This document shows positions 17,517-32,332 of a DNA stretch of 47,919 nucleotides, in pieces. Position 1 is the first letter of the stretch. Each line of letters starts with the position of its first letter. Source of the stretch: Marivita sp. XM-24bin2 (lineage in GTDB: Bacteria; Pseudomonadota; Alphaproteobacteria; Rhodobacterales; Rhodobacteraceae); assembly GCA_003149565.1 (NCBI GenBank), contig QCWH01000024.1, forward strand, positions 1-47,919, written 5' to 3'. The position numbers were made by a program, and so were the translations under genes. The notes beneath the pieces are model-generated. The model saw nothing but the letters and a program-made list of their open reading frames with translations, was not told the origin of the DNA and searched no databases.

Positions 17517-17780
17517 TCAGCGGTTGCGCAACGCCTCGATCAACTCATCTTTACTCATGTCCGACCGACCGTCGACATCAAGCTCCTGCGCGCGGGTGTA
17601 AAGTTCGTCCTTGCTCCACTCTTCATAGGAAGACGCCTTGCCGCCTTTGTTGGATGGATTTTGACTTTCATCTGCCTGCGCATTGGCGATGCTCGCGGCG
17701 GCTTCTTTGCTGTAGCCATCGTCGCGCAACGCTTCGTATGTCTCGTCGTCCTTGATGGAGGATCCGTGCGAGTCGGCCAT
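17517..17780 (-). CDS. Small Rho-N/DUF7218-like stress protein
   Basis: The 87-aa acidic protein has an N-terminal SIKDDETYEALRDDGYSKEAAASIANA segment (a helical motif seen in short bacterial stress proteins) and a C-terminal SAP/Rho_N-like helix-loop-helix, WSKDELYTRAQELDVDGRSD followed by MSKDELIEALR. Such domains can bind nucleic acid. It follows the 62-aa membrane-protein gene after 5 bp and would share its EcfG-type promoter. It is soluble and cytoplasmic; its function is unknown. Confidence 0.8.
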   Translation of the reverse strand: MADSHGSSIKDDETYEALRDDGYSKEAAASIANAQADESQNPSNKGGKASSYEEWSKDELYTRAQELDVDGRSDMSKDELIEALRNR

Positions 17781-17785
17781 TTGCC

Positions 17786-17974
17786 TTATCCGTCTGTCGC
17801 TGTGGCAGCGGCAGGTGCGGTTGCGTCCTCGCCCGGTTCATTGCCCTGAGCGGCAAGGTTGGCGAGGTATGCAAAGAACAAGATGGCGGCAAAGACGATA
17901 GCCGCGACGATGCCCCAAATGGCGGGACGGTGGCGTTTGGTTTGCTTCTCAACATTCGTGGATGGAGCGGACAT
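17786..17974 (-). CDS. Small single-pass membrane protein
   Basis: The 62-aa protein has a polar basic N-terminus, one clear transmembrane helix (IWGIVAAIVFAAILFFAYLA, residues 19-38) and an Ala/Thr-rich tail. I know no function. An EcfG-type promoter (GGAAC-N17-CGTT) lies 37 nt upstream of its ATG, and the Rho_N-like gene follows, so it looks like part of the general stress regulon. Confidence 0.7.
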   Translation of the reverse strand: MSAPSTNVEKQTKRHRPAIWGIVAAIVFAAILFFAYLANLAAQGNEPGEDATAPAAATATDG

Positions 17975-18010
17975 GCTGTACCTCTCGTTTATTTTCTAAC
18001 TCGGAGAAGG

Positions 18011-18036
18011 AACGCGGGGCATTGTCGGAAGGTTCC
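18011..18036 (-). promoter_or_regulatory. EcfG-type promoter for the 62-aa/87-aa gene pair
   Basis: On the minus strand GGAAC (18036-18032) and CGTT (18014-18011) are 17 nt apart, the known general-stress sigma factor form. The start codon is 37 nt downstream. Confidence 0.7.
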
Positions 18037-18049
18037 CAACATTTGGCTT

Positions 18050-18074
18050 GGAACACCTTCACGACTTTCGCGTT
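18050..18074 (+). promoter_or_regulatory. EcfG-type promoter for the MATE exporter
   Basis: GGAAC (18050-18054), 16-nt spacer, CGTT (18071-18074), then the MATE start at 18140. It is divergent from the preceding minus-strand promoter. Confidence 0.7.
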
Positions 18075-18139
18075 AAGAGCCGAAGGCGAGGTCTGTTCTG
18101 GCATGTCGCGCTTCCGAAAGACGAAAAGGATACCCGTTT

Positions 18140-19522
18140 ATGGCGCAGGCCGATTTGACCCAAGGACCCGTTTGGAAAGGTCTGGCGTGGGTCTCAGCCC
18201 CTATGAGCTTTGGCATTCTTGCGGTCTTGAGCGTCGGATTGGCGGATGCGTATTTTCTGGGGCAATTGGGACAGGCGCCGCTGGCGGCGGTTGGGTTCAT
18301 CTACCCGGTGACAACCGCGCTGATCTCGATGTCGATTGGTTTGTCTGCGGGGGCCAATGCGGTTGTATCCCAGGCCATCGGTCGGGACCACGCAGACGAT
18401 GATGCGCCAGTGCGCCTGGCGCTGCATTCCGTCGGGTTGGGTTTTGCTTTTGCGCTCGTCGTTGCGGTTCTTTTCTCCGTGGCCGCTCCTACGCTCTTTG
18501 CATGGATGGGTGCGGGAGAGGCGGCGCTTGCGGAGACTCGGGCCTACGTGCCGTTCTGGTCGATGTCGTTTCCGCTTCTGGTTCTGATGATGGTCTGCAA
18601 TGCCGTCTTTCGGGCGCATGGCGACGGAGCAACATCGGCGTTGCTCATGGTTCTGGCGGCTGCTGTCAATATCGCCATCAATCCGCTGTTGATCTTCGGC
18701 TGGGGCCCTGTGCCAGCTCTGGGCACAGAAGGGGCCGCGCTTGCGACCCTGATTGGTCGCGCCGTCGGTGCAGGCGTGGCGCTGTGGTATGCGTGGTATT
18801 CGGGGATTTTGACCGTGTGTGGCGAGCCGCTGAAGGGGCTGGCGTCAAGTTGGAAAGACGTGATTGCGGTTGGACTGCCGGCAGCGGGGTCGAACGCTAT
18901 CAATCCGGCCGGAATGGCTCTGGTCACCGCAGCAGTAGCGACCTTGGGCGAAGCGGCTGTGGCCGGGTTCGGCGCGGCGACGCGTGTGCAGTCGGTGGCT
19001 TTGGTTGTGCTCTTCGCGCTGTCAGCGGGGATCGGTCCCGTGGTGGGACAGAATTTCGGAGCTGACAAGCAGGAGCGGGCGCGCACCGCGCTCAAGCAAG
19101 CTTGGGCGTTCAGCGTGGTCTACGGGCTTGTCCTTGCAGCGGGTGTCACGATGTTTGCGGACTCGATTGCCGAACTATTCGCGGATGGCTCCGAGGCAAA
19201 GGACTATGCCGCCCAATACCTGCGTATCGTGAGTTGGAGCATCATGGGCTACGGCATCCTTGTCATCACGAATGCTGCGATGAACGCGCGCTCGAAAGCG
19301 GCCTATTCGCTGGGCCTGAGCTTTACCCGGATTTTTGTGGTCTACGTGCCGTTGGCTTGGCTGGGCATGTGGCTGTTTGACTATACCGGAATTCTGATTG
19401 CCGCTGTTCTGGCAAACGGATTTGGTATCGCTGGCGGCTTGTTCTGCGCGCGAGCGACCGGATTGATCGATGATGTTCAAGGACATGACGTGCCCAGGGT
19501 TCTGCCGGAGGCGCAGGGCTAG
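18140..19522 (+). CDS. MATE family efflux transporter
   Basis: The 460-aa protein has about twelve transmembrane helices in two similar halves, and typical MATE stretches: LADAYFLGQLGQAPLAAVGFI in the first half and GFGAATRVQSVALVVLFALSAGIGPVVGQNFGA in the second. Members export cationic drugs or metabolites using Na+ or H+ gradients across the inner membrane. An EcfG-type promoter lies upstream, which puts it in the general stress regulon. It converges on the amidotransferase gene 4 bp away. The substrate is unknown. Confidence 0.92.
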   Translation: MAQADLTQGPVWKGLAWVSAPMSFGILAVLSVGLADAYFLGQLGQAPLAAVGFIYPVTTALISMSIGLSAGANAVVSQAIGRDHADDDAPVRLALHSVGLGFAFALVVAVLFSVAAPTLFAWMGAGEAALAETRAYVPFWSMSFPLLVLMMVCNAVFRAHGDGATSALLMVLAAAVNIAINPLLIFGWGPVPALGTEGAALATLIGRAVGAGVALWYAWYSGILTVCGEPLKGLASSWKDVIAVGLPAAGSNAINPAGMALVTAAVATLGEAAVAGFGAATRVQSVALVVLFALSAGIGPVVGQNFGADKQERARTALKQAWAFSVVYGLVLAAGVTMFADSIAELFADGSEAKDYAAQYLRIVSWSIMGYGILVITNAAMNARSKAAYSLGLSFTRIFVVYVPLAWLGMWLFDYTGILIAAVLANGFGIAGGLFCARATGLIDDVQGHDVPRVLPEAQG

Positions 19523-19526
19523 GGGC

Positions 19527-20240
19527 TCAGGCCATCTCGGTGCGCATGGCGCGGGTCTGATTGCGATCGGTCCTGTAGGCATCGGCGGCGGTCACAAGCG
19601 CGCGGAAAATTGCGCGCTGTCTGTGGGCGTAGAAGAGATGTTCTGGATGCCATTGGACGCCAAGCGCGAACGGATCACGCACGCGTTCGATGGCCTGCAC
19701 CATGCCGCCGGTATCGCGCGCCGAGACCCGGAGGCCCTGACCGAGCCGATCCACGGCCTGTGAATGCAACGCATTCACCTTCATCGGCTGCTCACCGCTG
19801 ATGAGCGAAAGGTGGGTCGCTGCCTCGACGCAAATCTCGCGTTTGGGAAGGATCGTTGTGATTTTTCGATCAGGCCCAAATGTCGTCCATGCGTCCTGAT
19901 CAAGCGTGCCGCCGAGAGCGACGTTCAGCATCTGCGACCCGCGACAGATGCCGAGCACCGGAATGTTCTGCTCTAGTGCAGCTTCGGCCAGGCATCGTTC
20001 CAATTCGTCGCGCTTGGGATCAAGCCGTGCGGATACGCCCAGCTTGCCACCGTAGAGTTCCGGGCCAATGTCGTCACCGCCGCCGATGATCAAGCCATCC
20101 ACGCCGGCAAGATCTGCGACGCGGCCAACGCCCCAGCGCACACCACGTCCGCCAGTGATCCAGAGATTCAGGTTGATCAGTGGATACACCCGCCATCCGG
20201 TTCGGGATGATGTCGTTACGGCGATCAGCGGTCGGCTCAT
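19527..20240 (-). CDS. Class I glutamine amidotransferase / gamma-glutamyl hydrolase (peptidase C26, PuuD-like)
   Basis: The 237-aa protein has the nucleophile elbow LGICRGSQMLNV (C99) and the His-Glu pair in GVQWHPEH (H198, E200), so the triad is complete. Family members hydrolyse gamma-glutamyl bonds (PuuD) or release ammonia from glutamine. Its ATG overlaps the stop of the amidoligase gene as ATGA, a tight coupling that suggests the two act on the same metabolite: one makes an amide bond, the other supplies ammonia or trims a glutamyl group. It is the last gene of the seven-gene operon with an EcfG promoter. Confidence 0.88.
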   Translation of the reverse strand: MSRPLIAVTTSSRTGWRVYPLINLNLWITGGRGVRWGVGRVADLAGVDGLIIGGGDDIGPELYGGKLGVSARLDPKRDELERCLAEAALEQNIPVLGICRGSQMLNVALGGTLDQDAWTTFGPDRKITTILPKREICVEAATHLSLISGEQPMKVNALHSQAVDRLGQGLRVSARDTGGMVQAIERVRDPFALGVQWHPEHLFYAHRQRAIFRALVTAADAYRTDRNQTRAMRTEMA

Positions 20241-21208
20241 AAGTCTGCCCTTGCGCCGTTTGACGCCAAAAGGGCGTCGATGGTTTGAACCCAGACCGAT
20301 TTACGTTCGAACCAAGCTGCGTCATGGGTCTTCCACGCGCTGCGCAGCGCGCTCAGAAGCGCTTCGTTGGCCGCCACCAACTCAACCTGACGCCAGAGCT
20401 GCCAAGGTTGGAGAAGGCTCCAATCGGCTTCGTCTATGCGGCTGTCTGGCAAACGGAAATGAAAGGTTGGTCGCGCCGACGTTTTGTCCTCGACGTTAAA
20501 CACCTTATCAAACAGCTCCGGTTCAGCATGTTTGAAGAGCGGAAAGAGATCGAGGCTTTGATTGCGGCTTGTCACATGTCTGGCGAAGACCTGCATGACA
20601 TCGGCAAGGCTTTCGAATGTGGTGTTGACCAATTCAGAAATCAAAGCGCGCGGCCATGCTTCGACGAAAGGCATCATTCGACGGGTCGTGTCCACCTTTT
20701 CCTTGTCGCGCAGCCAAGGTTCAAGCAGCGCATAGGCGGTTATGGTGTCAAGCGTGTGCCGGTGATCGGGCGCCACCACTTCGGGGTTGAGGTGCACGCC
20801 GAAGCCCAGCAGCACGCCGCTGCGTGATCCCATGGCTCCTGCTTGACGTAGCGCCGTACACACCGAGTTGAAGCGTTCCAACTGCGCACGGCTCAGCGGA
20901 GGGGTGACGACCTCAACCGGGATCAGCCCGCGAAACGCGTCGAGACTTTCCTTGAGAAAGGGGAGGTCTTCGCGTTTGCGCAACGTGATGTCCAGCTCGA
21001 CACCGATATCGCCAAACTCCGTGTCGCAGACGGTAACACTGTGATCGCCACCGTCCTTGACTGTTCCTCCGAATTCCCGGGCGATCAAATCGCCGGTTTC
21101 GTGTTCGGTCGGGCCCGCAAATTCGATCTCGATTCCGCAGAGACGATCATTGCCGTCTGCGGTTTGCTCCACGGGCAAAGGAGGAAGGGTTGGGCTGATT
21201 TCAGTCAT
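20237..21208 (-). CDS. Putative amidoligase (Amidoligase_2 family)
   Basis: The 323-aa protein shows the marks of the GCS2/glutamine-synthetase-fold amidoligases: GIEIEF (residues 25-30, metal-binding glutamates), DGGDHSVTV with a later VELDI, VEVVTPPLS (98-106), GFGVHLNPEV (135-144) and a C-terminal PTFHFRLPD basic strand. These ATP-dependent enzymes join an amine to a carboxylate; substrates are unknown for most. Comparative work on the family reports pairing with class I glutamine amidotransferases, as here. ATG 21208 is 2 bp from the AI-2E gene's stop; an upstream in-frame extension is poor in family character. Expression from the stress operon is likely. Confidence 0.85.
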   Translation of the reverse strand: MTEISPTLPPLPVEQTADGNDRLCGIEIEFAGPTEHETGDLIAREFGGTVKDGGDHSVTVCDTEFGDIGVELDITLRKREDLPFLKESLDAFRGLIPVEVVTPPLSRAQLERFNSVCTALRQAGAMGSRSGVLLGFGVHLNPEVVAPDHRHTLDTITAYALLEPWLRDKEKVDTTRRMMPFVEAWPRALISELVNTTFESLADVMQVFARHVTSRNQSLDLFPLFKHAEPELFDKVFNVEDKTSARPTFHFRLPDSRIDEADWSLLQPWQLWRQVELVAANEALLSALRSAWKTHDAAWFERKSVWVQTIDALLASNGARADL

Positions 21209-21209
21209 T

Positions 21210-22235
21210 CTACGCCTGTGTCGGAGCCAGTGTCTTATCCGTATCCGGTCGTTGTTCCGGCGTATTTGCCATAAAGGCGGTGACCCAAACCAGAACCGGC
21301 AAGGACACGATACCGCCGATTGGACCCCAGAGCCATAGGCCGAACAAGATGGCAAGAAACACCACAAGCGGATTGAGTTGCAAGCGCTGGCCAACCAGCG
21401 TTGGCGTCACAAACTGTGCTTCGGTCATGTTCAAGGTTAAATAGGCGAGGGCAGGCAAAACAGCGTAGAGTCCTGTGAATTCGGTGAAACCCACGACGCC
21501 CAGTGAGACCAAAAGCAACACCGGTCCGAGATAGAGCACGAAATTCAGGAAAAAGGCGGCGGCGCCCCACAGGATCGGGTTTGGCACGCCGATGGCTGTC
21601 ATCACCGCAAAGACGGCCAGGCCCAGACCGGCATTGATTGTCGTGACAGTGATGAAATAATGCGACACGGCGCGGTCCGCCTGCCGAAGCGAGACGGCAT
21701 GATGTTTGAATGCGGCGTATATCTCGTTCTGGGTCAGGGTGAAAAAGAAGAACGTTCCTGCAAGCGTCAGAAGCTGCGCGGCAAAGTTGGGTGCAACCCA
21801 TAGCGCGTCGAGCAGGCTGGGCATCGCCTCTTCGACAGCCTGCCCATCCTCCGCAAGTGATTGTTCGAGTTCGAACTGTACGGATTCCAATCCACGAATG
21901 GCGCGGCTGGCGTCGATCACCCAGTAGCGGATTTCATCTTCGATCCTGGGAACCTGACCGATCAAATCCATCGCAATCGGACCAAGACCGGCGATCAACA
22001 AGACAGTGAACGCACCCACGCAGATGAGGCTGATGCTGGCGCTGACCGCCCGTGGTACGCCGAGGCGTGCAAGCAAGCGCATGCCCGGTGCGGCGACGAT
22101 GGCAAGCACCAACCCAAGCGTGACAGGCGCTAGCAGCCCCTGCGCCAACTTCATGGCGGTAACAACCGCCACCATCGCCACAAGGGCGATGGCGACGGTT
22201 TGAATGGTGCCGCTCGTCGGAATGCGCGTGCTCAT
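21210..22235 (-). CDS. AI-2E family transporter (PerM/TqsA type)
   Basis: The 341-aa membrane protein has about seven to eight helices and the family core LTLAGTFFFFTLTQNE, GVPNPILWGAAAFFLNFVLYLGP, followed by LTLNMTEAQFVTPTLVGQRLQLNPLVVFLAILFG, all diagnostic of the UPF0118/AI-2E exporter family (each cited stretch is partial). Substrates range from autoinducer-2 to Na+/H+. Its ATG overlaps the preceding stop by one base (TGATG). Placement directly before the amidoligase raises the possibility that it exports that enzyme's product. Confidence 0.9.
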   Translation of the reverse strand: MSTRIPTSGTIQTVAIALVAMVAVVTAMKLAQGLLAPVTLGLVLAIVAAPGMRLLARLGVPRAVSASISLICVGAFTVLLIAGLGPIAMDLIGQVPRIEDEIRYWVIDASRAIRGLESVQFELEQSLAEDGQAVEEAMPSLLDALWVAPNFAAQLLTLAGTFFFFTLTQNEIYAAFKHHAVSLRQADRAVSHYFITVTTINAGLGLAVFAVMTAIGVPNPILWGAAAFFLNFVLYLGPVLLLVSLGVVGFTEFTGLYAVLPALAYLTLNMTEAQFVTPTLVGQRLQLNPLVVFLAILFGLWLWGPIGGIVSLPVLVWVTAFMANTPEQRPDTDKTLAPTQA

Positions 22236-22999
22236 CAGGCGGTCTGTTTTCCGTCAGAAAACTCGGCGCGCGCTTCGCGGATACCGCTGTCAACGGCGGC
22301 TTTGCCTTGACGCTCAAGCTTGGCGACTTCGTCGCGCAGGACGGCCTCGGCATCACGCATCATCTTGTCGCGCGTTGCGCCCATCAGTTCGGTTTCTGCC
22401 TTGGTGGATGGCAGCAAAGCTCCGATCAATGCGCCAATCCCGGCCACAATGGCCCCGGTCAGGAAGGGCTGGCTTTGATGTGCATCGCGCGCTTTTTGCG
22501 ATGAGCGACGAGCTTGGCGTTCCAGCTTTTCCTGCGCGTCGATCACCTTGAGCCGCGCTTCCGTCACGCGGGCGCGCGCCTCGGGGGAGAGTTTGTCCAG
22601 GCCCTTGTCGACAGACTTGCGAAGGGTCGAGGCGGATTGCGTATTTGCGAACCGTCCGGTCTGCACCCGCTGGCGTGTTTTCATCTGACGATCTGCCCGG
22701 GCAATTCGGTCATCGTGGCCCTCCATTTGATCGTAAGAAGTCAGGCCTGGTTCCCGCTTTTGACCGCTGTTCAGTGCGATGAGCGCTGCTCCGATCCCGA
22801 TCAAAGCAAGGCCAGATGGCGCATTTTTGGCCTTGTCCAAGGCCGCCGCGACAACGGTCTGACCGAGATCGGCGGTCTGACCAACAGCGCGTTTTGCACG
22901 GGCTTCGGGGTTGACGGATGAGGCGAGGTTGCTGATGTGGTCTGTCAGCTGTGCGCGATGGCTTTCGGCATTGCGTTCGAGTTGATCTGCATTAGGCAC
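22235..22999 (-). CDS. DUF3618-domain membrane protein
   Basis: The 254-aa protein begins with a DUF3618-like segment (ADQLERNAESHRAQLTDHIS), has a hydrophobic helix near 60-80 (GLALIGIGAALIALN), a long charged helical middle (about 90-170) and a second glycine-rich hydrophobic segment near 180-200 (FLTGAIVAGIGALIGALLP), then an amphipathic tail. The start is GTG 22999, with AAGGAG 7 nt upstream and an 8-bp overlap with the previous gene. It is likely a membrane-shaping or anchoring stress protein; the exact role is unknown. Confidence 0.75.
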   Translation of the reverse strand: MPNADQLERNAESHRAQLTDHISNLASSVNPEARAKRAVGQTADLGQTVVAAALDKAKNAPSGLALIGIGAALIALNSGQKREPGLTSYDQMEGHDDRIARADRQMKTRQRVQTGRFANTQSASTLRKSVDKGLDKLSPEARARVTEARLKVIDAQEKLERQARRSSQKARDAHQSQPFLTGAIVAGIGALIGALLPSTKAETELMGATRDKMMRDAEAVLRDEVAKLERQGKAAVDSGIREARAEFSDGKQTA

Positions 23000-23393
23000 G
23001 GGACATCTCCTTGATAATTTCGATGTCGGATTTGACTTGTTTCATGGTGCGGGTGGGCGCCAACGCGCTCGCTGAAAGGCGGGATTTCCCGATCAGTGCG
23101 AAGACCAGAGCAATCGCGAGACAGGCAATAGCCACGATCAAAGCTGCCCAATGATACGCGACGCCAAGAGCTGCGATCCCGAGAATGGCTGCTACGGAAA
23201 GCGCGACGAGGCCGACCAGAGCGACGAGCAGGGCAAGGGCAAACAGGGCCAGACCGCCGCCGGCGCGCGCTGCATTGTCGGATAGTTCCTGCCGCGCCAG
23301 CTGCAGCTCCGTTCGCAAAAGCGCACGGCCTTCGGTAATGATGCCAGCGATCATGGTCCGAAAATCAGTCGGTTCTTTGGTGCGTTGTGTCAC
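22992..23393 (-). CDS. Phage-holin-like membrane protein (Holin-X/DUF1469 type)
   Basis: The 133-aa protein has a short amphipathic N-terminal helix (TELQLARQELSDNAARAGGG) and two adjacent hydrophobic helices (about 46-100), the layout of the putative actinobacterial holin-X/DUF1469 family. Despite the family name, such proteins are common in stress operons and need not be phage-related. GTG 23393 overlaps the preceding stop as GTGA. It lies third in the stress operon. Confidence 0.78.
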   Translation of the reverse strand: MTQRTKEPTDFRTMIAGIITEGRALLRTELQLARQELSDNAARAGGGLALFALALLVALVGLVALSVAAILGIAALGVAYHWAALIVAIACLAIALVFALIGKSRLSASALAPTRTMKQVKSDIEIIKEMSRA

Positions 23394-23839
23394 TGTTCCA
23401 CCTCTGCGCTTTGCAGATGCCCAGACCAAGGATCAGTTTCGTCCTCGGCTGTTGAATGCGTGCCCTCTCCGGATTTGATGAACCGCGCCGCGGCAAAGCC
23501 AAGAAGTGCAGCCCCGCCCAAAAAGAGGAGCGGATTTTTGCGAGCAAATACAGCGACGTCGTCGGCCATCTCATCCACCGGTTTGTCACGCAGCTGTGCC
23601 GCGACTGAGCTTATCTGAGCAGAGATCTGGTTCAGCGCGGCTGCCTGCAGACTGTCGGAATCAAATTCATCTCCTGCGGCATCGGCCGCGCTGGCAGTGG
23701 ATTCGGCTGTATCGATTGCTTCGCTGCGTGCTTGCTCTGCCTGCTGTTGCGCTGCGGCGGAAACGTGGTCGGTCGCATCATTGGCAAGTTTCGTGGCACG
23801 CTCTTTGGCAGTGTGGATGGTTGACTGTGTGTTGGGCAT
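23390..23839 (-). CDS. DUF883/YqjD-like stress protein
   Basis: The 149-aa protein is mostly an Ala/Gln/Glu-rich helical stretch (about 8-60) followed by an ElaB/YqjD-like segment: RDKPVDEMADDVAVFARKNP, then a glycine-rich membrane helix FLGGAALLGFAAARF (about 107-122). YqjD-type proteins are inner-membrane proteins that bind ribosomes in stationary phase in E. coli, but homology here is at domain level. ATG 23839 follows AGGAGG. It lies second in the operon. Confidence 0.75.
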   Translation of the reverse strand: MPNTQSTIHTAKERATKLANDATDHVSAAAQQQAEQARSEAIDTAESTASAADAAGDEFDSDSLQAAALNQISAQISSVAAQLRDKPVDEMADDVAVFARKNPLLFLGGAALLGFAAARFIKSGEGTHSTAEDETDPWSGHLQSAEVEQ

Positions 23840-23863
23840 TTTGGCCTCCTGAAAAAAGCCGAA

Positions 23864-24301
23864 TTAAACGGTCTGAAGGATGTTATTGATTTTGCTCTGC
23901 AGCGTGTCGCGCTGACCCTTCAGCGTGTCGTGCAAGGGGTCTTGAGGTGACAGGCATTTGATCGCGTCGTCGTAGCGCTTCACGACCGTCTCTTCCCCAT
24001 CGGCAACGGTATTCAGCGCGTCGCCGTCAAGATCGGTGAACGTGTCGCGAATACGGACAACCGCTTTATGCACGTTGGCCATCAGTGTGCCCGCGCGGTC
24101 TAGTTCCAGACCTTGTTTGGACGCGACACGTTCAATCGCGGCGATGTCTTCGTCGTGCTGGCTGCGTAGGTCCTGAATGCAGCCGCGGATCGAAGGCTCG
24201 GCCCGTTCAACAAACTCATCATATCCTTCGCGGATGTCTATCAGAGTGTCGAACAAAGATTGCACACAGTTGTGAAGATCGTGTCGTGCTGTCTCGGACA
24301 T
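23864..24301 (-). CDS. DUF2383 / PA2169-type four-helix bundle protein
   Basis: The 145-aa soluble protein is helical and matches the PA2169-like ferritin-fold family: LFDTLIDIREGYDEFVERAE, HDEDIAAIERVASKQGLEL, and VVKRYDDAIKCLSP. The metal-binding glutamates of true ferritins are not obvious. ATG 24301 follows AAGGAGG; an upstream in-frame extension to 24358 would run into the promoter. It is the first gene of the operon, with an EcfG promoter whose -10 ends 24 nt before the ATG. Confidence 0.84.
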   Translation of the reverse strand: MSETARHDLHNCVQSLFDTLIDIREGYDEFVERAEPSIRGCIQDLRSQHDEDIAAIERVASKQGLELDRAGTLMANVHKAVVRIRDTFTDLDGDALNTVADGEETVVKRYDDAIKCLSPQDPLHDTLKGQRDTLQSKINNILQTV

Positions 24302-24325: not shown

Positions 24326-24350
24326 AACGCGGCAGGGTGAGCAGAGTTCC
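24326..24350 (-). promoter_or_regulatory. EcfG-type promoter of the seven-gene stress operon
   Basis: On the minus strand GGAAC (24350-24346), 16-nt spacer and CGTT (24329-24326) match the consensus exactly. The DUF2383 start is at 24301. The rest of the 245-bp gap up to the Crp/Fnr stop shows no gene. Confidence 0.8.
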
Positions 24351-25275: not shown

Positions 25276-25355
25276 AACTCCTCGCTATGTCATAGTTTAA
25301 TGCAAAGCTTGTCGTTTGATGTCATTTGTGGCCGGATGCCTAGGGAAAATGCACG

Positions 25356-25724
25356 ATGACCGAGTTGTTTGAGTCCGATCCAAAAGCCTTGATTGTGTCG
25401 AACAATGTGATTGAGGCCGATGATTTGACTGAGATGTTGACGGAACAAGGTCTTGATCCTGTTGTCCACGTCCGCGATGTCGAGGGTGCTCAAGCCGTTT
25501 TGGAGCAGCGAAGCGCCAACCTACGACTGGTGATCTGTGGTCTGTCGATGCACGAAACCGACGCGTGCTCATTCGTTCAGGAACAAATGAAAAGTACGTG
25601 GTCTCTGCTGCTGATTGACCCGCCTGACGCACAAGACGGTCAAGAGGGATGTGGCGTTTTACTGCGTCCCTTCTCGACCGCCGACATGATGGCAGTTTTA
25701 TTGCGGATGGGTTTGACGTCTTAA
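25356..25724 (+). CDS. Degenerate receiver (pseudo-response-regulator) protein
   Basis: The 122-aa protein follows the CheY beta/alpha pattern (ALIVSNN at strand 1, LRLVICGLSM at strand 3, VLLRPFSTADMMAVL at strand 5) but has lost the phosphorylation chemistry: the acidic pair reads S15-N16-N17, the acceptor Asp position is G62, and the conserved Lys is R104. It therefore cannot be phosphorylated in the usual way and may act as a protein-protein adaptor. Its position next to the phyR locus suggests a link with stress signalling. Its stop overlaps the convergent DUF883-like gene by 4 bp. Confidence 0.72.
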   Translation: MTELFESDPKALIVSNNVIEADDLTEMLTEQGLDPVVHVRDVEGAQAVLEQRSANLRLVICGLSMHETDACSFVQEQMKSTWSLLLIDPPDAQDGQEGCGVLLRPFSTADMMAVLLRMGLTS

Positions 25725-26011
25725 TAGCGCTTGGTCAGCGCAAGGCCTAAGACCAAACCTACCCCCATGGCGCCCAGCACGGCCAGCGTGGGATTGCGCC
25801 GAACGGCGCTGTCAAATTCGCCTTGGTAGGTCTGCACATAGTCAGAGCCCGTCTGCACCGCATTCGACGCGCCGTCGCGAACCGATTGGGCTGCTTGGTT
25901 CATACTGTCTTGCGCGTCCGAAACGGTCTCGCGCAACTTGTCCGAAGCGCTTGCCTTTGTGCTTTTGTGATCAGTGGGTTGCGCGTGAGTGTTTGTGTCA
26001 GTCGCTGTCAT
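25721..26011 (-). CDS. DUF883/ElaB-YqjD-like membrane protein
   Basis: The 96-aa protein has a polar helical N-terminal two thirds (SASDKLRETVSDAQDSMNQA and following) and a C-terminal glycine-rich membrane helix (TLAVLGAMGVGLVLGLALT, about 75-93) ending in KRY, the usual ElaB/YqjD layout. ATG 26011 follows AAGGAGAGG. An exact EcfG promoter lies upstream, with the -10 ending 27 nt before the ATG. Likely an inner-membrane stress protein; YqjD-type ribosome tethering is an inference only. Confidence 0.8.
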   Translation of the reverse strand: MTATDTNTHAQPTDHKSTKASASDKLRETVSDAQDSMNQAAQSVRDGASNAVQTGSDYVQTYQGEFDSAVRRNPTLAVLGAMGVGLVLGLALTKRY

Positions 26012-26038: not shown

Positions 26039-26063
26039 AACGTGTCGCTCGGCGCAAAGTTCC
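26039..26063 (-). promoter_or_regulatory. EcfG-type promoter of the DUF883-like gene
   Basis: On the minus strand GGAAC (26063-26059), 16-nt spacer, CGTT (26042-26039). It is placed back to back with the plus-strand promoter starting at 26066. Confidence 0.78.
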
Positions 26064-26065
26064 CT

Positions 26066-26091
26066 GGAACCTTGTTGTCGCCTCTGGGGTT
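26066..26091 (+). promoter_or_regulatory. Probable EcfG-type promoter of the DUF1328 gene (variant -10)
   Basis: GGAAC (26066-26070), 17-nt spacer and GGTT (26088-26091), one base off the CGTT consensus. The start codon is 39 nt downstream. Confidence 0.5.
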
Positions 26092-26130
26092 GTGATCGCA
26101 CCATGCAAACAGAAACGAAGGGACTTACTT

Positions 26131-26292: not shown

Positions 26293-26296
26293 ACTT

Positions 26297-26328: not shown

Positions 26329-26346
26329 AGTTGATGACCGTCTAAG

Positions 26347-27156
26347 TCAGGCCTTCAGCGTCTCTGTCGACGAGAAGAACATGGCCTGGCTCACTGCAGA
26401 GCGCACCTGTTCCTCGGTGTACGGTTTCGAAATCAGGAATGCGGGTTCCGGTCCTTCACCAGTCAACAAGCGCTCGGGGAATGCGGTGATGAAGATCACC
26501 GGAATGTCCGGATCGTCCGAAACAATTCTGTTGACGGCATCAATACCGCTGGAACCATCGGCCAGTTGGATATCCGACAGGATGAGGTGCGGCTTTTCCT
26601 TGTTATAAAGTTCAACAGCTGCATCAGCTGTGCGGGCAATGCCGGTGACGACGTGGCCCATGTCGGCGACAATCGCTTCGAGGTCCATCGCGATGATGGC
26701 TTCATCCTCAATGATCATGACACGACCTGCCAAGGATTTCGCCATTTCGCTGTAAGCGATGTCGACGAGATTTTGGGCTTCATCTTTGCTGATGCTCAGA
26801 ACATTTGCCACTTCGTCAAAGGTCATTTCTTCGATTGTATGCAGCAAAAGCGCTTCGCGGGTGCCGGAGGTGAGGCGCGACAGATGCTGTTGAGCCTTGG
26901 CGGCAGCACCAGTTTCGGACTCGCTGAGCGTTGCACCGGACGTAGACCAGATGGAATGGAACACTTTGAACAAGGCGACCTTGTCTGAAACCTCATGGTC
27001 GAAGAGGCTCCTATCACTCAAAATAGCCTCCAGAGCGACGACGGCGTATCTGTCGCCTTCGGTCTGCGACCCGGTGAGAGCCCTCGCATACCGGCGCAGA
27101 AACGGAAGGTTCGCCCCGATTTTGGAGGTTAGGTCCTGAGATTGTTCGGTCGGCAT
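26347..27156 (-). CDS. phyR: General stress response anti-anti-sigma factor PhyR
   Basis: The 269-aa protein has an N-terminal sigma-like output domain (about 1-135, ECF-type regions 2 and 4 without DNA-binding function, ending in EEMTFDEVANVLSISKDEAQN) and a C-terminal receiver (about 144-262) with the acidic pair E150/D151, phospho-acceptor D195 (LILSDIQLAD), T224 and K244. On phosphorylation PhyR binds NepR and frees EcfG. The receiver at the C-terminus is the reverse of ordinary response regulators and is diagnostic. ATG 27156 has GGGAG 9 nt upstream. It is divergent from nepR-ecfG and has its own exact EcfG promoter, giving positive feedback. No histidine kinase gene is next to it. Confidence 0.97.
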   Translation of the reverse strand: MPTEQSQDLTSKIGANLPFLRRYARALTGSQTEGDRYAVVALEAILSDRSLFDHEVSDKVALFKVFHSIWSTSGATLSESETGAAAKAQQHLSRLTSGTREALLLHTIEEMTFDEVANVLSISKDEAQNLVDIAYSEMAKSLAGRVMIIEDEAIIAMDLEAIVADMGHVVTGIARTADAAVELYNKEKPHLILSDIQLADGSSGIDAVNRIVSDDPDIPVIFITAFPERLLTGEGPEPAFLISKPYTEEQVRSAVSQAMFFSSTETLKA

Positions 27157-27189
27157 AGAGAAAAGCTCCCACTTTTTTTGCATGTTGTT

Positions 27190-27214
27190 GGAACCAAACG
27201 CCCAAAATGGTGTT
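27190..27214 (+). promoter_or_regulatory. EcfG-type promoter of nepR-ecfG (variant -10)
   Basis: GGAAC (27190-27194), 16-nt spacer and TGTT (27211-27214), one base off CGTT. It overlaps the oppositely directed phyR promoter. The nepR start is at 27264. Confidence 0.62.
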
Positions 27215-27221
27215 AAGTTCC
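27197..27221 (-). promoter_or_regulatory. EcfG-type promoter of phyR
   Basis: On the minus strand GGAAC (27221-27217), 16-nt spacer and CGTT (27200-27197) match the consensus exactly. It interlocks with the nepR-ecfG promoter: 18 bp are shared. Confidence 0.8.
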
Positions 27222-27263
27222 CGCGAGCGTGCGAATATCTGAAAAAAACATCCGAAGGGCTAC

Positions 27264-27428
27264 ATGAAACAGGATCGAAAAATATCAAGCTTGGAGCAAG
27301 AGATCGAGGCCAACCTAAAGCGCGTCTATAACGACATCGCTACTCAGGAAGTCCCGGATCGCTTCACGCAGTTGCTCAACCAACTCCGTGACGCAGAGAA
27401 AGCGTCGACGGAGTGCAAAAATGGCTGA
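27264..27428 (+). CDS. nepR: Anti-sigma factor NepR
   Basis: The 54-aa protein has the NepR core, IEANLKRVYNDIATQEVPDR followed by FTQLLNQLRDAE, in which two helices wrap EcfG and are displaced by PhyR. It is short, as NepR proteins are. ATG 27264 has GAAGGG 5 nt upstream. The gene ends 8 bp inside ecfG, so sigma factor and anti-sigma factor are translated together. Its place between phyR and ecfG makes the call firm. Confidence 0.93.
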   Translation: MKQDRKISSLEQEIEANLKRVYNDIATQEVPDRFTQLLNQLRDAEKASTECKNG

Positions 27429-27969
27429 TCCCAGAGACGAAATAGTTGAGCATTTGAGCGCGATGCGCGCCTTTGCGGTAAGTCTAACGCGCAATTCAGC
27501 GTTGGCGGACGATATGGTGCAAGATGCGCTTGTAAAGGCCTGGACAAAGATCGATTCGTATCAGGAAGGCACCAATATGCGTGCTTGGCTGTTCACGATT
27601 CTGCGCAACACCTACTATTCGCACCACCGCAAAGCACGTCGCGAAGTGGCCGACACTGACGGTGAAATGGCCGCATCTCTGGCACAGAAGCCTGATCATG
27701 ATGGACGCCTTCAGATGCGTGATTTCAATCGAGCCTTCGAAATGCTGAACGACGAGCAACGCGAAGCTTTGGTTCTCGTCGGCGCTGGTGGGTTCTCCTA
27801 TGAGGAAGCGGCGGAGACGTGCGGCGTGGCTGTGGGAACGATCAAAAGTCGTGTGAACCGTGCCCGGAAGCAATTGGTGGAACTGCTTCAGATGAGCGAT
27901 GACGAGGTGATGGAAGCGACAGATATCGTCACCACGGGCATCGTTACCAACCAAAAGAACGTTGCCTGA
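27421..27969 (+). CDS. ecfG: General stress response ECF sigma factor EcfG (ECF15)
   Basis: The 182-aa sigma factor has region 2 (about 8-73: LADDMVQDALVKAWTKIDSY, RAWLFTILRNTYYSHHRK) and region 4 (about 103-155: EALVLVGAGGFSYEEAAETC, GTIKSRVNRARKQL). It directs RNA polymerase to GGAAC-N16/17-CGTT promoters, several of which lie in this window. ATG 27421 overlaps nepR by 8 bp. The tail from 156 on is acidic and hydrophobic, beyond the usual region 4. Confidence 0.96.
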   Translation: MADPRDEIVEHLSAMRAFAVSLTRNSALADDMVQDALVKAWTKIDSYQEGTNMRAWLFTILRNTYYSHHRKARREVADTDGEMAASLAQKPDHDGRLQMRDFNRAFEMLNDEQREALVLVGAGGFSYEEAAETCGVAVGTIKSRVNRARKQLVELLQMSDDEVMEATDIVTTGIVTNQKNVA

Positions 27970-28008
27970 TCTACGCTCGTCTGCATGACGCTTCTGGGAG
28001 ATATTGCC

Positions 28009-29496
28009 GTGACCGATCCAGGCTCGGACTTTGAGGTTCTGATCACGGCAGAAGAGGCATGGCCCGCATTCGAGCGGGCCGTTCTCTCTGCGCGCACGTA
28101 TGTCCATGGGTCTTTTCGCGTTTTTGACCTTTGCACGAAACTGCGAAGCAAGGAGGCCCGGGCGGTAGGCGACGATTGGTTTGATCTTTTGGCGCATTCA
28201 GTCAAACGCGGTGTTCAGGTGACAATTGTGGTGAGTGACTTCGATGCGGTCATGGCCACGCCGCTGCATGAATTGACGTGGAAAACAGTGCGCCAAGGCG
28301 TTGCCTTGGCAGAGGTCTCGGATGCAAAGCCCGGTCAGTTAAAGATCAAAGCCTGCTTACATCCTGCACGAGCCGGCATGCTGCCGCGCGGGATGCTTTT
28401 GCCATCTGTGCTGAAGCGTAAATGGGAACAGCTTTCCGGCTTGAACGAAGATCGGTTGACCCGTCAGGCGGTGCTGCTCAACAGCAAAGCGTTGCCGGAG
28501 TTGCGGACAGTTTCGCATCATCAGAAGCTTGCCGTGATAGATGATGACACGCTTTTTATTGGTGGGCTTGATCTCAATGAGCGTAGGTTCGATACGCTGG
28601 ACCACGAACGGCCGGCGCGCGAGACTTGGTCTGATGTTCACTTGATCATGCGCAACGGGCCCGAAGTTGCCGAGGCCAAGGCGCATCTCGACAGTTTTTT
28701 GGACGTGACGTCCGGCAGGTGCGATCCGCCGCCGTTAAGCGTGATCAAGCGAACAATGTCGGCGCCGCGCCGTATGCAGTTTCCTTATCTGTCTCCACGC
28801 ACTGTGGTGAATGAAATTGAAGAAGCTCATATCGCAAGCTTTAGATCTGCTCGTCATCTCATCCATGTCGAGACCCAATTTCTGCGATCAAGCGTTATCG
28901 CAGGGGCTCTGGCCGAAGCGGCTGTGAGAAACCCTGATCTACATCTCATTGCGATTTTACCTGCCTTGCCCGAGGCATTGGCGTTTTACGACGACGATGG
29001 ACTCGACACACGGTTTGGCATGGCTCTGCAGAAAGATGCTGTCTCTGTCGTGCGTGAGGCGTTTCAAGAGCGGGCAACACTGGCGTCGCCAGTGCGTCCG
29101 GTTCTTGCATCGCGCGACCGGATGGCATGTCTCGCGGGATCGCCATTGATCTACGTCCACAACAAGGTTTTGGTGAAGGACGATGATTATGCCCTTATTG
29201 GCTCGGCAAATCTGAACGGACGGTCGATGCGGTGGGATACCGAGGCTGCAGTGGCGATTACGGATAAGGCGCACGTCTCTGCACTGCGATCAAGATTGAT
29301 GTCTCACTGGTGGTTTGAAGACTTGCCGGCCGAAGCGTCCGATCCGGCAACCCTGCAACCCTGGTGGGATAGGGAGATTGAGGCAAATGGTGTTTGTTTG
29401 CCCGAAAGTCGCAGCGGATTCCTGGTGCCATATGATGCAGACAACCAAGCCGATCTGGCGCGCTCCTTGCCGGGGATCACGGAAAACATCGTTTGA
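28009..29496 (+). CDS. Phospholipase D-like (cardiolipin synthase superfamily) protein
   Basis: The 495-aa protein has two HKD motifs: HHQKLAVID (H171, K173, D178) and VHNKVLVKDDDYALIGSANL (H384, K386, D391), with GSANLNGRS after the second, so both half-sites of the PLD active site are intact. Such enzymes transfer phosphatidyl groups or cut phosphodiesters at membranes; cardiolipin-synthase-like activity is plausible. I choose GTG 28009 because GGGAG precedes it by 8 nt; ATG 27985 is in frame without a clear site. It follows ecfG by 39 bp (15 bp from the other start), so it is probably in the nepR-ecfG transcript, which is unusual and suggests envelope remodelling in the stress response. 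Confidence 0.88.
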   Translation: MTDPGSDFEVLITAEEAWPAFERAVLSARTYVHGSFRVFDLCTKLRSKEARAVGDDWFDLLAHSVKRGVQVTIVVSDFDAVMATPLHELTWKTVRQGVALAEVSDAKPGQLKIKACLHPARAGMLPRGMLLPSVLKRKWEQLSGLNEDRLTRQAVLLNSKALPELRTVSHHQKLAVIDDDTLFIGGLDLNERRFDTLDHERPARETWSDVHLIMRNGPEVAEAKAHLDSFLDVTSGRCDPPPLSVIKRTMSAPRRMQFPYLSPRTVVNEIEEAHIASFRSARHLIHVETQFLRSSVIAGALAEAAVRNPDLHLIAILPALPEALAFYDDDGLDTRFGMALQKDAVSVVREAFQERATLASPVRPVLASRDRMACLAGSPLIYVHNKVLVKDDDYALIGSANLNGRSMRWDTEAAVAITDKAHVSALRSRLMSHWWFEDLPAEASDPATLQPWWDREIEANGVCLPESRSGFLVPYDADNQADLARSLPGITENIV

Positions 29497-29497
29497 G

Positions 29498-29523
29498 GGA
29501 ACCCAAAGGCCGCTTGCGCGGTT
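29498..29523 (+). promoter_or_regulatory. Possible EcfG-type promoter of the YihY gene (variant -10)
   Basis: GGAAC (29498-29502), 17-nt spacer and GGTT (29520-29523), with the start codon 28 nt later. The GGTT also belongs to a small CCGC/GCGG hairpin with TTTT, so part of the match could be terminator sequence. Confidence 0.4.
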
Positions 29524-29551
29524 TTCCGCTTGAGCGAAGAGGAAACACAGT

Positions 29552-30520
29552 ATGACGCGCGGACGCTTGGCCGAGAGGCCGACACACATTTCAGCCTACG
29601 GACTTCTGGATGTGGGCTTTCGAATGTGGAAGCGACAATCGTCTCTGAACCTCGGGCTGATTGCAGCTGGCATCGCATTCTACGGCCTGTTGTCCCTGTT
29701 TCCTGGAATTACCGCAGCCGCTGCCTTGGCCGGTGTGTTTCTTGAGCCGGGTATGCTGATCGAAAACAGCGACGAGATCACACGCATGCTTCCCGATGCC
29801 GCGAAGGGGATCGTGATGGGGCAGCTTTCGGATGTGGCAAATGCTGACAGCTCGGCGCTGAGCTTTGCAGCGCTTCTGGGTTTTGCCGTTGCACTTTATT
29901 CGGCCTCCAAGGCGGTGGCTAACTTTATCACAGGGCTCAACTTCATCTACGAAGAAGACGAGGCTCGGAATTTCTTTGTTGTAAAAGCTCTGACAATTTT
30001 TCTGACCGTGGTGATGATCATCGCTCTTTTGATCGCAATCATCGTCGTGGCTGCGATCCCGGTGGTTGCGTCAATTTTCGGCGATTACGGCATCATCGAC
30101 GATGTCGTAATGTTCTTGCGCTGGCCCTTCCTCTTTCTGATGGGCGCTGCAGGAATTGCCGTTTTGTATCGTCTGGGACCTGACCGGCGGTCGGCAAAAT
30201 GGCGGTGGCTGACGCCGGGGGCGTTTGTGGCCTGTGCGCTTTGGGTTGCGGGCAGTTACGGATTCAGCCTCTACGTGCAATCTTTTGGATCCTACAATGA
30301 GACCTTTGGGGCGCTGGGCGGGGTGATCATCCTGCTGACATGGCTCTGGCTGTCGGCGTTCATCGTCCTGCTTGGCGCTTTGCTTGATGCCGAATTAGAA
30401 GCCCAGACCAAACGTGACAGCACGGTGGGTGAAGACCGACCAATCGGTCAGCGTGGCGCGGTCAAGGCAGATACCGTCGGCGCGGCACTCGGTGAGAAAA
30501 TGACGGAACCCTCGCAGTAG
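29552..30520 (+). CDS. YihY/BrkB family inner-membrane protein
   Basis: The 322-aa protein has six transmembrane helices with the family hallmarks LIAAGIAFYGLLSLFPG in the first helix, LYSASKAVANFITGLNFIY in the middle and YNETFGALGGVIILLTWLW near the end. Despite the old name RNase BN, the family is membrane-embedded with no proven nuclease activity. ATG 29552 follows GAGGAAACACAG. It lies 55 bp after the PLD gene and may read through or use a variant EcfG promoter. Confidence 0.9.
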   Translation: MTRGRLAERPTHISAYGLLDVGFRMWKRQSSLNLGLIAAGIAFYGLLSLFPGITAAAALAGVFLEPGMLIENSDEITRMLPDAAKGIVMGQLSDVANADSSALSFAALLGFAVALYSASKAVANFITGLNFIYEEDEARNFFVVKALTIFLTVVMIIALLIAIIVVAAIPVVASIFGDYGIIDDVVMFLRWPFLFLMGAAGIAVLYRLGPDRRSAKWRWLTPGAFVACALWVAGSYGFSLYVQSFGSYNETFGALGGVIILLTWLWLSAFIVLLGALLDAELEAQTKRDSTVGEDRPIGQRGAVKADTVGAALGEKMTEPSQ

Positions 30521-30529
30521 TCAAACGTT
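30505..30529 (+). promoter_or_regulatory. EcfG-type promoter of the Pmp3-DUF4112-Host_attach operon
   Basis: GGAAC (30505-30509), 16-nt spacer and CGTT (30526-30529), an exact match. It starts inside the last codons of the YihY gene, and the Pmp3 start is 28 nt downstream. Confidence 0.75.
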
Positions 30530-30557
30530 GACCCTCCAGACATCATAGGAGGGGTCA

Positions 30558-31291: not shown

Positions 31292-31745
31292 GTCGGGCGT
31301 ACCACACAATGCATGGGTCATAATCGTCGACGGCGAAAAGGTCCTCTATCTTGTCAACAAAGGTGATGACATCGATATGCATCTTGTCGTTCGCGACAAG
31401 GAAGAACAGGACAATCCACAGGCGCAAGACTGGGCGGCGAACCGTCCCGGGCGGTTCAACGACGGTCCTTCGCCTCAACGCTCTGCAGTTGATGACACAG
31501 ACTGGCATCAGCTCGAGAAGGAGCGGTTCGCTAAGGACGTGGCCGAACAACTTTACAAGGATGTTCACAGAGGGCGCTTCAGCGATTTGATCATTGTGGG
31601 TAGCCGACCGGCGTTGAGCGAAATCCGCAAGGAAATGCATCCGGAAGTGGCGAAAACTTTGCGCCTTGATGTGGCGAAAGTGCTCACCAACCACCCCATT
31701 GACGAAATCGAAACTCTGGTCAGCCGGGAAATGGAAAATAGCTGA
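31281..31745 (+). CDS. Host_attach family protein (PF10116)
   Basis: The 154-aa protein has NAWVIIVDGEKVLYLVNKGD at the N-terminus and ERFAKDVAEQLYKDVHRGRF then LIIVGSRPALSEIRKEMHPE, the typical pattern of the family named from an Agrobacterium attachment protein. It is related to the eRF1/archaeal-release-factor-like fold; host attachment is unproven in free-living species, and here the setting is general stress. ATG 31281 follows GAGGAGAGCGACA. Confidence 0.88.
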   Translation: MTRKSGVPHNAWVIIVDGEKVLYLVNKGDDIDMHLVVRDKEEQDNPQAQDWAANRPGRFNDGPSPQRSAVDDTDWHQLEKERFAKDVAEQLYKDVHRGRFSDLIIVGSRPALSEIRKEMHPEVAKTLRLDVAKVLTNHPIDEIETLVSREMENS

Positions 31746-31754
31746 AAATACTTC

Positions 31755-31779
31755 GGAACCTTTTTCGGTTGTGGTTGTT
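31755..31779 (+). promoter_or_regulatory. EcfG-type promoter of the 80-aa protein and csbD (variant -10)
   Basis: GGAAC (31755-31759), 16-nt spacer and TGTT (31776-31779), the same -10 variant as the nepR-ecfG promoter. The next start is 28 nt downstream. Confidence 0.6.
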
Positions 31780-31807
31780 AACACACTGATAAAAGGAGAA
31801 AAATATC

Positions 31808-32050
31808 ATGAAGGTTGGAGCTATTGTCGCTGGTGTCGTGCTTGTCGCGGCCGTCGCTTTTGGTGTCTACATGGTGGACATTGATCAAACCGAAGAAGGC
31901 ACTTTGCCGACTGTCTCTATAGATGGTGGCAACATGCCGGAATTCGACGCAGAAGTTGGCGATGTCGAAGTTGGTGAACGTGATGTCACTGTGACTGTTC
32001 CCGATGTCGATCTTGAATCGCCTGAAGAAGAGAACGTTGCGTCGAATTAA
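31808..32050 (+). CDS. Small acidic exported or membrane-anchored protein
   Basis: The 80-aa protein has an N-terminal hydrophobic segment (VGAIVAGVVLVAAVAFGVYM, residues 3-22) as signal or anchor, then an acidic, Val/Asp-rich tail with repeats of the type GDVEVGERDVTVTVPDVD. I recognise no function. AAAAGGAGAAAAAT precedes ATG 31808. It is followed by csbD after 29 bp and preceded by a variant EcfG promoter. Confidence 0.75.
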   Translation: MKVGAIVAGVVLVAAVAFGVYMVDIDQTEEGTLPTVSIDGGNMPEFDAEVGDVEVGERDVTVTVPDVDLESPEEENVASN

Positions 32051-32079
32051 ATTTACTTAAATCCCTTAAGGAGGCTCTC

Positions 32080-32277
32080 ATGGATCGCGATGTGATCGAA
32101 GGACACTGGACCGAAATCAAAGGACGTTTGCGTGAAGCTTATGGTGAGTTGACGGATGACGACGTTGAAGAAGCCAAAGGTGATCGCGAGCAGATGGAAG
32201 GCGTGCTCCAGCAAAAGCTGGGCCGGTCGAAAGACGAGGTGCGCCAGACTGTGGATCGGATTTTAAATAATCTCTGA
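32080..32277 (+). CDS. CsbD family stress protein
   Basis: The 65-aa protein reads MDRDVIEGHWTEIKGRLREA, then YGELTDDDVEEAKGDREQME, GVLQQKLGRSKDEVRQTVDR, the CsbD pattern of two helices with IxGxWxxxKGxxK-like opening. CsbD is a sigma-B-controlled general stress protein in Bacillus and is common in EcfG regulons. It is soluble and small; its function is unknown. AAGGAGG precedes ATG 32080. A terminator follows. Confidence 0.93.
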   Translation: MDRDVIEGHWTEIKGRLREAYGELTDDDVEEAKGDREQMEGVLQQKLGRSKDEVRQTVDRILNNL

Positions 32278-32303
32278 TCAAATCTGGACCTAAATGAACA
32301 AAG

Positions 32304-32332
32304 CGCGGCTGTTTCTACGGCCGCGTTTTTTT
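32304..32332 (+). terminator. Intrinsic terminator after csbD
   Basis: A 6-bp GC stem (CGCGGC / GCCGCG), 10-nt loop, then seven T, about 27 nt after the csbD stop. It closes the stress island on this side. Confidence 0.85.

Follow-up and report, generated by a model that had tools for sequence, protein, structure and literature searches.

The general stress response (GSR) of alphaproteobacteria, as described in Methylobacterium, Caulobacter (SigT), Sphingomonas and Rhizobium etli, is built on three proteins, PhyR, NepR and EcfG, with phyR divergent from nepR-ecfG, a shared promoter consensus (GGAAC-N16/17-C/GGTT) and predicted autoregulation. The same three genes lie in the same arrangement in a 47,919-nt stretch of the marine roseobacter Marivita sp. 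XM-24bin2 (Rhodobacteraceae; NCBI assembly GCA_003149565.1, contig QCWH01000024.1, positions 1 to 47,919), hereafter the window. Judged by its sequence, the block at 17517..32332 is a phyR/nepR-ecfG locus with nearby predicted EcfG targets. Unlike the GSR loci of other families, in which the two divergent core promoters stand back-to-back (ten of the ten loci with both sites), this locus has them interlocked within a 32-bp dyad. As far as the titles and abstract openings of the searched literature go, this geometry appears to be a new element; subscription reviews of the GSR lay outside that search, and one of them may already describe it.

The interlocked phyR/nepR-ecfG dyad

The phyR gene (26347..27156, minus strand; start picked by its ribosome-binding site) encodes sigma-like and receiver domains (PF22029, 1.8e-24; PF22233, 6.8e-10; PF00072, 2.4e-14). 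Divergent from it on the plus strand is the anti-sigma factor gene nepR (27264..27428; PF18557, 8.1e-14, 51.4 bits against a cut-off of 25.7), which lies upstream of and adjoins ecfG (27388..27969, starting at GTG 27388 or ATG 27421). The ecfG product, an extracytoplasmic function (ECF) sigma factor, matches PF04542, PF08281 and PhyR_sigma2, and was assigned through its Sigma70 region 2 and region 4 matches, with the ECF15 subgroup not scored separately. EcfG consensus sites are found on both sides of the intergenic region, the one on the nepR side ending in TGTT and not in C/GGTT.

These two 25-bp sites, GGAAC-N16-TGTT at 27190-27214 (+) before nepR-ecfG and GGAAC-N16-CGTT at 27197-27221 (−) before phyR, overlap by 18 bp and together form the dyad at 27190..27221, of the general form GGAAC-NN-AAC-N12-GTT-NN-GTTCC. 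Each -10 box (27197-27200 and 27211-27214) thereby falls within the spacer of the opposite promoter. Sigma factors of the EcfG class start transcription about 7 nt after the -10 box; each -35 box is accordingly predicted to lie between the opposite promoter's -10 box and its start, with the two starts about 32 bp apart. A first-pass annotation of the window had listed the pair as two sites, and their interlocking had gone unremarked.

The dyad was followed through loci anchored on either core gene. The 80 PhyR loci, the best 80 of 357, comprise a Marivita group of 12 (L031-L042; nine Marivita and three unclassified alphaproteobacteria) and 68 others, among them L051, a Marivita locus only 71% identical that was put with the other genera. 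By PhyR identity, the nearest relative is an unclassified alphaproteobacterial metagenome-assembled genome (MAG; 94%), followed by a Marivita MAG (90%) and other Marivita. The 40 nepR loci of the same family are a non-random set, the top-scoring NepR matches taken in rank order from 40 of the 89 genomes with a match, nine genomes (G147, G114, G087, G021, G159, G158, G156, G091, G162) being passed over, partly for nearness to contig ends. The other-family loci represent 40 of the 55 non-family genomes with a NepR match, and 35 of these 40 also have a PhyR match. Some genomes are present in both family sets.

Opposite-strand pairs with outer ends 29-33 bp apart, counted without thinning for duplicates, were present in 12/12 Marivita loci, 40/68 of the other PhyR loci and 27/40 family nepR loci; none occurred in the 40 other-family loci or in 3.18 Mb of reversed sequence. 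Of 198 family genomes, 27 (the present one among them) carry the exact 32-bp dyad, each a single time and 68-149 bp from the nepR match (reversed-pattern control, 0); it was found in none of the 289 other genomes of a class-wide sample (n=290), four of which belong to the same family. In the present genome it occurs once, even with one mismatch allowed. When the nepR-side site was used as the sole anchor, GTTCC followed 26-28 bp on in 87 of 87 distinct family loci and in 4 of 20 loci from other families; identical dyads were counted once here, as in the conservation and covariation counts. The four other-family loci with the full frame all come from one family (f30). The frame GGAAC-N21-23-GTTCC, with the -10 boxes ignored, was present at 107 distinct family loci. 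Across 50 dyads the central 8 bp were nearly unconserved (0.04-0.27 bits).

Other divergent pairs of EcfG sites are frequent at these loci, and nearly all, self-palindromic matches aside, are back-to-back, as are 18036 (−)/18050 (+) and 26063 (−)/26066 (+) in this block; one pair is 58 bp apart. Among the ten other-family loci with both core sites (the self-palindromic L249 set aside), the -35 boxes are 7-10 bp apart in seven and 29-42 bp apart in three.

The near-perfect inverted repeat GGAACC...GGTTCC, together with outer boxes that are better kept than the inner ones, could potentially be explained by an operator for a dimeric regulator in place of two EcfG promoters. We regard this as improbable, given that each half matches an EcfG promoter with its 16/17-bp spacer, that the halves vary independently with no excess of symmetry, and that the inner boxes, where they degenerate, take the C/T/G-GTT forms also present at EcfG sites elsewhere. 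In the class, moreover, both transcription units are generally EcfG-dependent according to the accessible parts of two reports (PMC4814048, PMC8103513).

Two variants of the -10 boxes were observed. The nepR-side box (27211-27214) is TGTT in this genome and CGTT in 12/12 Marivita relatives, including the nearest (L031), which possibly reflects a recent weakening of nepR-ecfG autoregulation. Upstream of phyR in four Tateyamaria loci (L058, L059, L068, L071), the frame is kept with CATT-like -10 boxes on both sides, while other sites at these loci keep CGTT.

In the scheme that we propose, phosphorylated PhyR would take NepR off EcfG, and EcfG-RNA polymerase would then start at GGAAC-N16/17-(C/G/T)GTT sites, ten of which lie in the block, switching on the neighbouring membrane and stress operons along with the core genes themselves (autoregulation). 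Both phyR, to the left, and nepR-ecfG, to the right, would be driven from the one 32-bp dyad, where a polymerase bound in one direction would block the other. We infer this exclusive occupancy from the 18-bp overlap, and EcfG dependence from the match to the consensus. The promoter calls are in our estimation very likely correct, and activity in both directions of the dyad is quite likely. The reading as a whole, that of a GSR locus with EcfG sites, interlocked promoters and exclusive occupancy, we consider probable, an assessment that leaves any holding of a ratio aside.

Partner switches depend on the ratio of sigma factor to anti-sigma to anti-anti-sigma factor, and alphaproteobacteria split these parts into two divergent units; Bacillus meets the same ratio problem with one operon. 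Under mutually exclusive occupancy, the initiation rates would take the form kiKiR/(1+K1R+K2R), where R is active EcfG, so that the ratio of phyR to nepR-ecfG initiation would be independent of the amount of active EcfG. With two independent promoters, the ratio would drift as one of them saturated first. In this way the dyad might keep PhyR and NepR-EcfG production at a constant ratio throughout the response, whatever the strength of induction, a hypothesis that we advance tentatively and hold to be rather doubtful. Co-regulation of the two EcfG-dependent units, probably maintaining stoichiometry, has already been proposed for the class in the portions of the literature available to us (PMC4814048, PMC8103513), and the interlocked promoter gives that suggestion a concrete, testable DNA element. 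Polymerases at E. coli bidirectional promoters do compete once one direction is substantially activated, according to the accessible part of PMC12825309.

Several observations weigh against the proposed role of the dyad, and some of them suit an explanation to which we give somewhat less than an even chance: that this is an ordinary GSR locus whose interlocking is a frozen accident in the family's ancestor, held by spacer needs and devoid of regulatory consequence. With a 16/17-bp spacer required on both sides, the offset between the two promoters can no longer shift, and the conserved geometry alone is no proof of function; box conservation in the dyads is also partly there by construction, as the dyads were chosen by their boxes. 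Covariation of the two halves was absent in 81 dyads, and compensation between them was not found either (two weak -10 boxes occur together in 1 of 75 dyads, 2 being expected), which is as a frozen accident would have it and means that the sequences give no sign of selection on the ratio itself. Bidirectional promoters of E. coli are reported, again in the accessible part of PMC12825309, to be too weakly active at the basal level for competition. In Rhodobacter sphaeroides, membrane stress raised ecfG (RSP_1272) mRNA and not phyR mRNA, as stated in the available portion of PMC5830050, which does not fit equal two-way use at that locus (whose dyad was not examined).

The distribution of the frame has exceptions as well. 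Near phyR it is missing from 9 of 121 family loci, with a dyad slightly further off in one of these (L176); 34 of the 121 gave no distinct nepR-side site, some as duplicates and others through divergence of the -10 boxes; and in other families the frame is absent from 31 of 35 loci. Other overlapping opposite-strand matches occur too, self-palindromic and with ends 26-27 bp apart, for example 18009 (+)/18011 (−), so that only the 32-bp form, and not every overlap, is special to phyR/nepR. What a frozen accident accommodates less easily is that the GGAAC...GTTCC frame outlives changes of the -10 boxes in many loci, and that the exact form occurs nowhere else in the 198 family genomes, for all the frequency of other, mostly back-to-back, divergent EcfG pairs at the loci compared.

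EcfG-type sites across the block

The first-pass annotation had placed ten EcfG-type sites in the block, on both strands, and all ten match GGAAC-N16/17-[C/T/G]GTT at the positions it gave. It had counted seven CGTT boxes and three or four of TGTT or GGTT; there are six of the former, and four of the latter did hold. Besides the phyR-side site of the dyad, the CGTT sites are at 18011..18036 (−; GGAAC-N17-CGTT), before a small membrane protein gene and DUF7218/Rho_N genes; at 18050..18074 (+; GGAAC-N16-CGTT), back-to-back with the preceding site and before a MATE exporter gene; at 24326..24350 (−), before a run of seven genes; at 26039..26063 (−), before a DUF883-like gene (25721-26011); and at 30505..30529 (+), before Pmp3-DUF4112-small gene-baeRF12. 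GGTT follows an N17 spacer at 26066..26091 (+), before DUF1328 and back-to-back with 26039..26063, and at 29498..29523 (+), before yihY. TGTT is found at 31755..31779 (+), before a small gene (31808-32050) and CsbD (32080-32277), and on the nepR side of the dyad.

Measured from where the -10 box ends, the likely start codon is 24 nt away for the site at 24326, 27 nt at 26039, 28 nt at 29498, 30505 and 31755, 36 nt at 18011, 39 nt at 26066, 40 nt at 27197, 49 nt at 27190 and 65 nt at 18050. An earlier count of six sites at 24-35 nt from the start was thus nearly right, five lying in that range and the sixth at 36 nt. Further matches in the block are at 18009 (+; GGTT), overlapping 18011 (−), and at 31977 (−; CGTT), the latter dropped as a target for its position within a gene, to which it is antisense. 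Outside the block, matches were found at 16076 (−; GGTT) and 35868 (+; CGTT). This last site (35868-35893, GGAAC-N17-CGTT), beyond the block first delimited, lies 22 nt upstream of a 372-aa open reading frame (ORF) with no Pfam family above cut-off. It was considered as an eleventh target and set aside: the ORF has no Pfam family, and in L031 no strict site precedes position 6649, the place expected from synteny, although synteny beyond the VanA-type gene was not checked in that comparison.

GGAAC-N15-19-CGTT occurs nine times in the window against 2.3 expected from shuffles. The strict form GGAAC-N16/17-CGTT occurs 85 times in the 4.43-Mb draft genome, and seven of these matches (one inside a gene) are at 17517-32332, against 0.26 expected from the remainder, which makes the sites about 27-fold denser in the 14.8-kb block than in the remaining genome; this genome-wide count upheld the local enrichment noted at first. 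The Poisson P for the block, at the outside density, is about 1e-8, an optimistic value as the interval was picked after the sites had been seen. The reversed pattern occurs 155 times genome-wide and not at all in the block, and the motif is thus unenriched over the genome as a whole. Over spacer lengths of 6 to 30, seven sites in the block have a spacer of 16 or 17, and a single one has any other length. That the sites are chance matches to a loose consensus would be in keeping with 85 matches in one genome and with the location of 47 of the 77 matches outside the window inside predicted genes. For the block, however, we consider this extremely unlikely in the face of the local density, the spacer specificity, the position of the sites and their conservation.

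Conservation is, in our view, the best evidence that the sites are genuine. A site was sought upstream of each target gene in those relatives that have the gene, with the proviso that some Crp labels in the relatives' gene maps may be paralogues. In the Marivita group, the phyR-side and the nepR-side sites were each found in 12/12 loci, and a site was likewise present before the DUF883-like gene at 25721-26011 (12/12), the small membrane protein gene served by the 18011 site (11/11, CGTT), DUF1328 (11/11; ten T/GGTT and one CGTT), DUF2383, served by the 24326 site (8/8 loci with a DUF2383 match), Pmp3 (4/4 loci with a Pmp3 match), DUF4112 (7/8), yihY (8/12, all T/GGTT) and the gene at 31808-32050 (6/8; four CGTT and two T/GGTT). 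MATE had its site in 4/4 loci with the gene. Spacer sequences vary between species, and the boxes are therefore kept against a drifting background. The initial reading of a PhyR-NepR-EcfG locus amid EcfG-type sites is supported, the sites being retained upstream of the same genes in relatives.

Genes without a site in this genome mostly remain without one in Marivita. The Crp-Fnr gene (−) and the receiver-like gene (+) at 24547..25724, which lie within the block and serve as internal negative controls, had a site in 0/10 and 0/11 loci, respectively, and the same was true of the phospholipase D-like (PLD) gene directly 3′ of ecfG (27985..29496, +; 0/10), ecfG itself (0/12), peptidase C26, amidoligase and DUF3618 (0/11 each), holin-X (0/12), AI-2E (0/9) and baeRF12 (0/9). 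Exceptions were the first DUF883-like gene (1/12), CsbD (1/9) and a VanA-type gene (1/6). In other genera, sites were found before amidoligase (6/15), AI-2E (2/20), holin-X (1/10), the first DUF883-like gene (7/9), CsbD (11/14) and DUF7218 (8/9), which we attribute to changes of gene order within the operons.

DUF1328 and yihY keep their T/GGTT -10 boxes across Marivita while their neighbours have CGTT; in other genera DUF1328 is mixed (16 CGTT and 23 T/GGTT, n=40). The -10 class is in part specific to the gene, which points to gene-specific promoter classes. The MATE gene (18050-19522 with its site) is present in 4/12 Marivita loci, with its own site each time; loci that lack the gene show no strict site of this orientation either, as though promoter and gene travelled as a unit.

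Block genes and the scattered predicted regulon

The seven-gene run (19527..24301, −) reads, by Pfam, DUF2383, DUF883-like, holin-X, DUF3618, AI-2E, amidoligase and peptidase C26, and its gene spacing suggests a single operon; the second gene (23390-23839), which we take to be DUF883-like, has no Pfam match. With these, the membrane- and stress-type neighbours of the core genes comprise DUF7218, MATE, DUF1328, PLD, YihY/BrkB, Pmp3, DUF4112, baeRF12 and CsbD. The window contains no tRNA, and a window-wide Rfam scan returned nothing at gathering thresholds. The receiver-like gene (25356-25724, +) encodes a 122-aa protein with no Pfam family above cut-off and is kept in Marivita between crp and the DUF883-like gene. 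Its AlphaFold model (pLDDT 86) has Foldseek matches to receiver domains, including that of PhyR; in the alignment, both the usual acidic pocket and the phospho-aspartate seem to be missing, and the protein may be a pseudo-receiver next to the switch genes.

A recently acquired genomic island might be suspected from the mild dip in G+C content (56.5% in the block against 59.9% and 58.1% on its flanks) and from the MATE gene, which comes and goes. We judge it highly unlikely: the gene order is the same in 12 Marivita loci, barring gene losses and contig ends, the same gene set recurs in other orders in other genera, no tRNA is at hand, and beyond the block a cytochrome c gene is found in 10/12 and a YdcZ gene in at least 8/12 Marivita loci. 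Composition, tRNA and synteny, the features assessed, do not mark the block as an island.

The clustering of the sigma factor with its targets had at first been called unusual, which did not survive comparison within the family. The 40 family nepR loci hold 197 sites (4.98 per 20 kb), and 27 of them have three or more non-core genes in common with the block; in 20 control regions from genomes of the same family there are 12 sites, or 0.60 per 20 kb, and none reaches three block genes. The 68 other PhyR loci average 3.77 sites per 20 kb, and two sets of 20 other-family loci 2.98 and 2.40 (57 and 48 sites, against 3 and 13 when the sequences are reversed); these two sets share few genes with the block. 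With eight sites in 20 kb, the window is at the upper end of, and inside, the range of 0 to 11 for the 40 family loci, and high density is usual for the family. As gene order varies between genera, it is a gene set, and not one fixed segment, that stays near ecfG.

A regulon confined to the block was rejected, as intergenic sites are scattered upstream of genes elsewhere. Of the 77 matches beyond the window, 30 fall between genes, 36 are followed by a predicted gene within 200 nt, and 29 fit both descriptions; random 25-mers from the same stretches, run through the same rough custom gene caller by which intergenic status was assigned, gave expectations of 6.2 intergenic and 2.1 both (P 7e-14 and 3e-25). 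From the genes following those 29 sites we picked 20 for a family scan, in which four had no match. The candidate targets so found include a HisKA_2/HWE kinase, a sigma factor with regions 2 and 4 that we read as RpoH-like, OsmC, DJ-1/PfpI, two MscS-type channels, topoisomerase IB, a pyridoxamine-oxidase-like protein, a cupin and a metallo-beta-lactamase fold, among others. The regulon probably includes a few dozen genes elsewhere in the genome. No GSR study in marine roseobacters was found among the matches listed in the literature searched, which did return work on R. sphaeroides and Rubellimicrobium, and EcfG target predictions can now be offered for marine roseobacters.

No HWE/HisKA_2 kinase was found among the scanned genes of the block; the HisKA_2 and HWE models each match five places in the genome and none in the window. 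On contig 7 at about 57879-59820 (G000; L021), a HisKA_2/HWE kinase gene has GGAAC-N16-CGTT 139 nt upstream and is a candidate PhyR kinase.

Comparison with known systems

The R. sphaeroides locus RSP_1274-1271 likewise has nepR-like and ecfG genes divergent from phyR and a Crp-Fnr gene downstream of phyR. Unlike in R. sphaeroides, no kinase gene was seen beside ecfG here; in several other genera, a gap of about 1.7 kb (content not checked) separates ecfG from PLD, where R. sphaeroides has its kinase. Rubellimicrobium thermophilum, a relative for which promoters of the same consensus are predicted in the accessible part of PMC12148442, differs in having two GSR loci with paralogues. In a phyR locus of the same R. 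thermophilum strain (L083), the frame is kept with the phyR-side site only; of the other Rubellimicrobium loci, L110 keeps the frame and L086, L094, L095, L101 and L105 are without it.

The bidirectional promoters described by Warman, Grainger and colleagues are likewise pseudo-symmetric DNA that loads polymerase either way, the binding of one excluding the other. They share one -10 element, with starts 7-25 and usually 18 bp apart, according to the available portion of PMC12825309. The Marivita dyad has no shared -10 element: it consists of two complete, nested ECF promoters with separate -10 boxes and predicted starts at the wider distance given above. If the proposed role is true, the dyad would amount to a ratio clamp that is encoded in DNA and serves a partner switch, and to a type of bidirectional promoter that does without a common -10 box.

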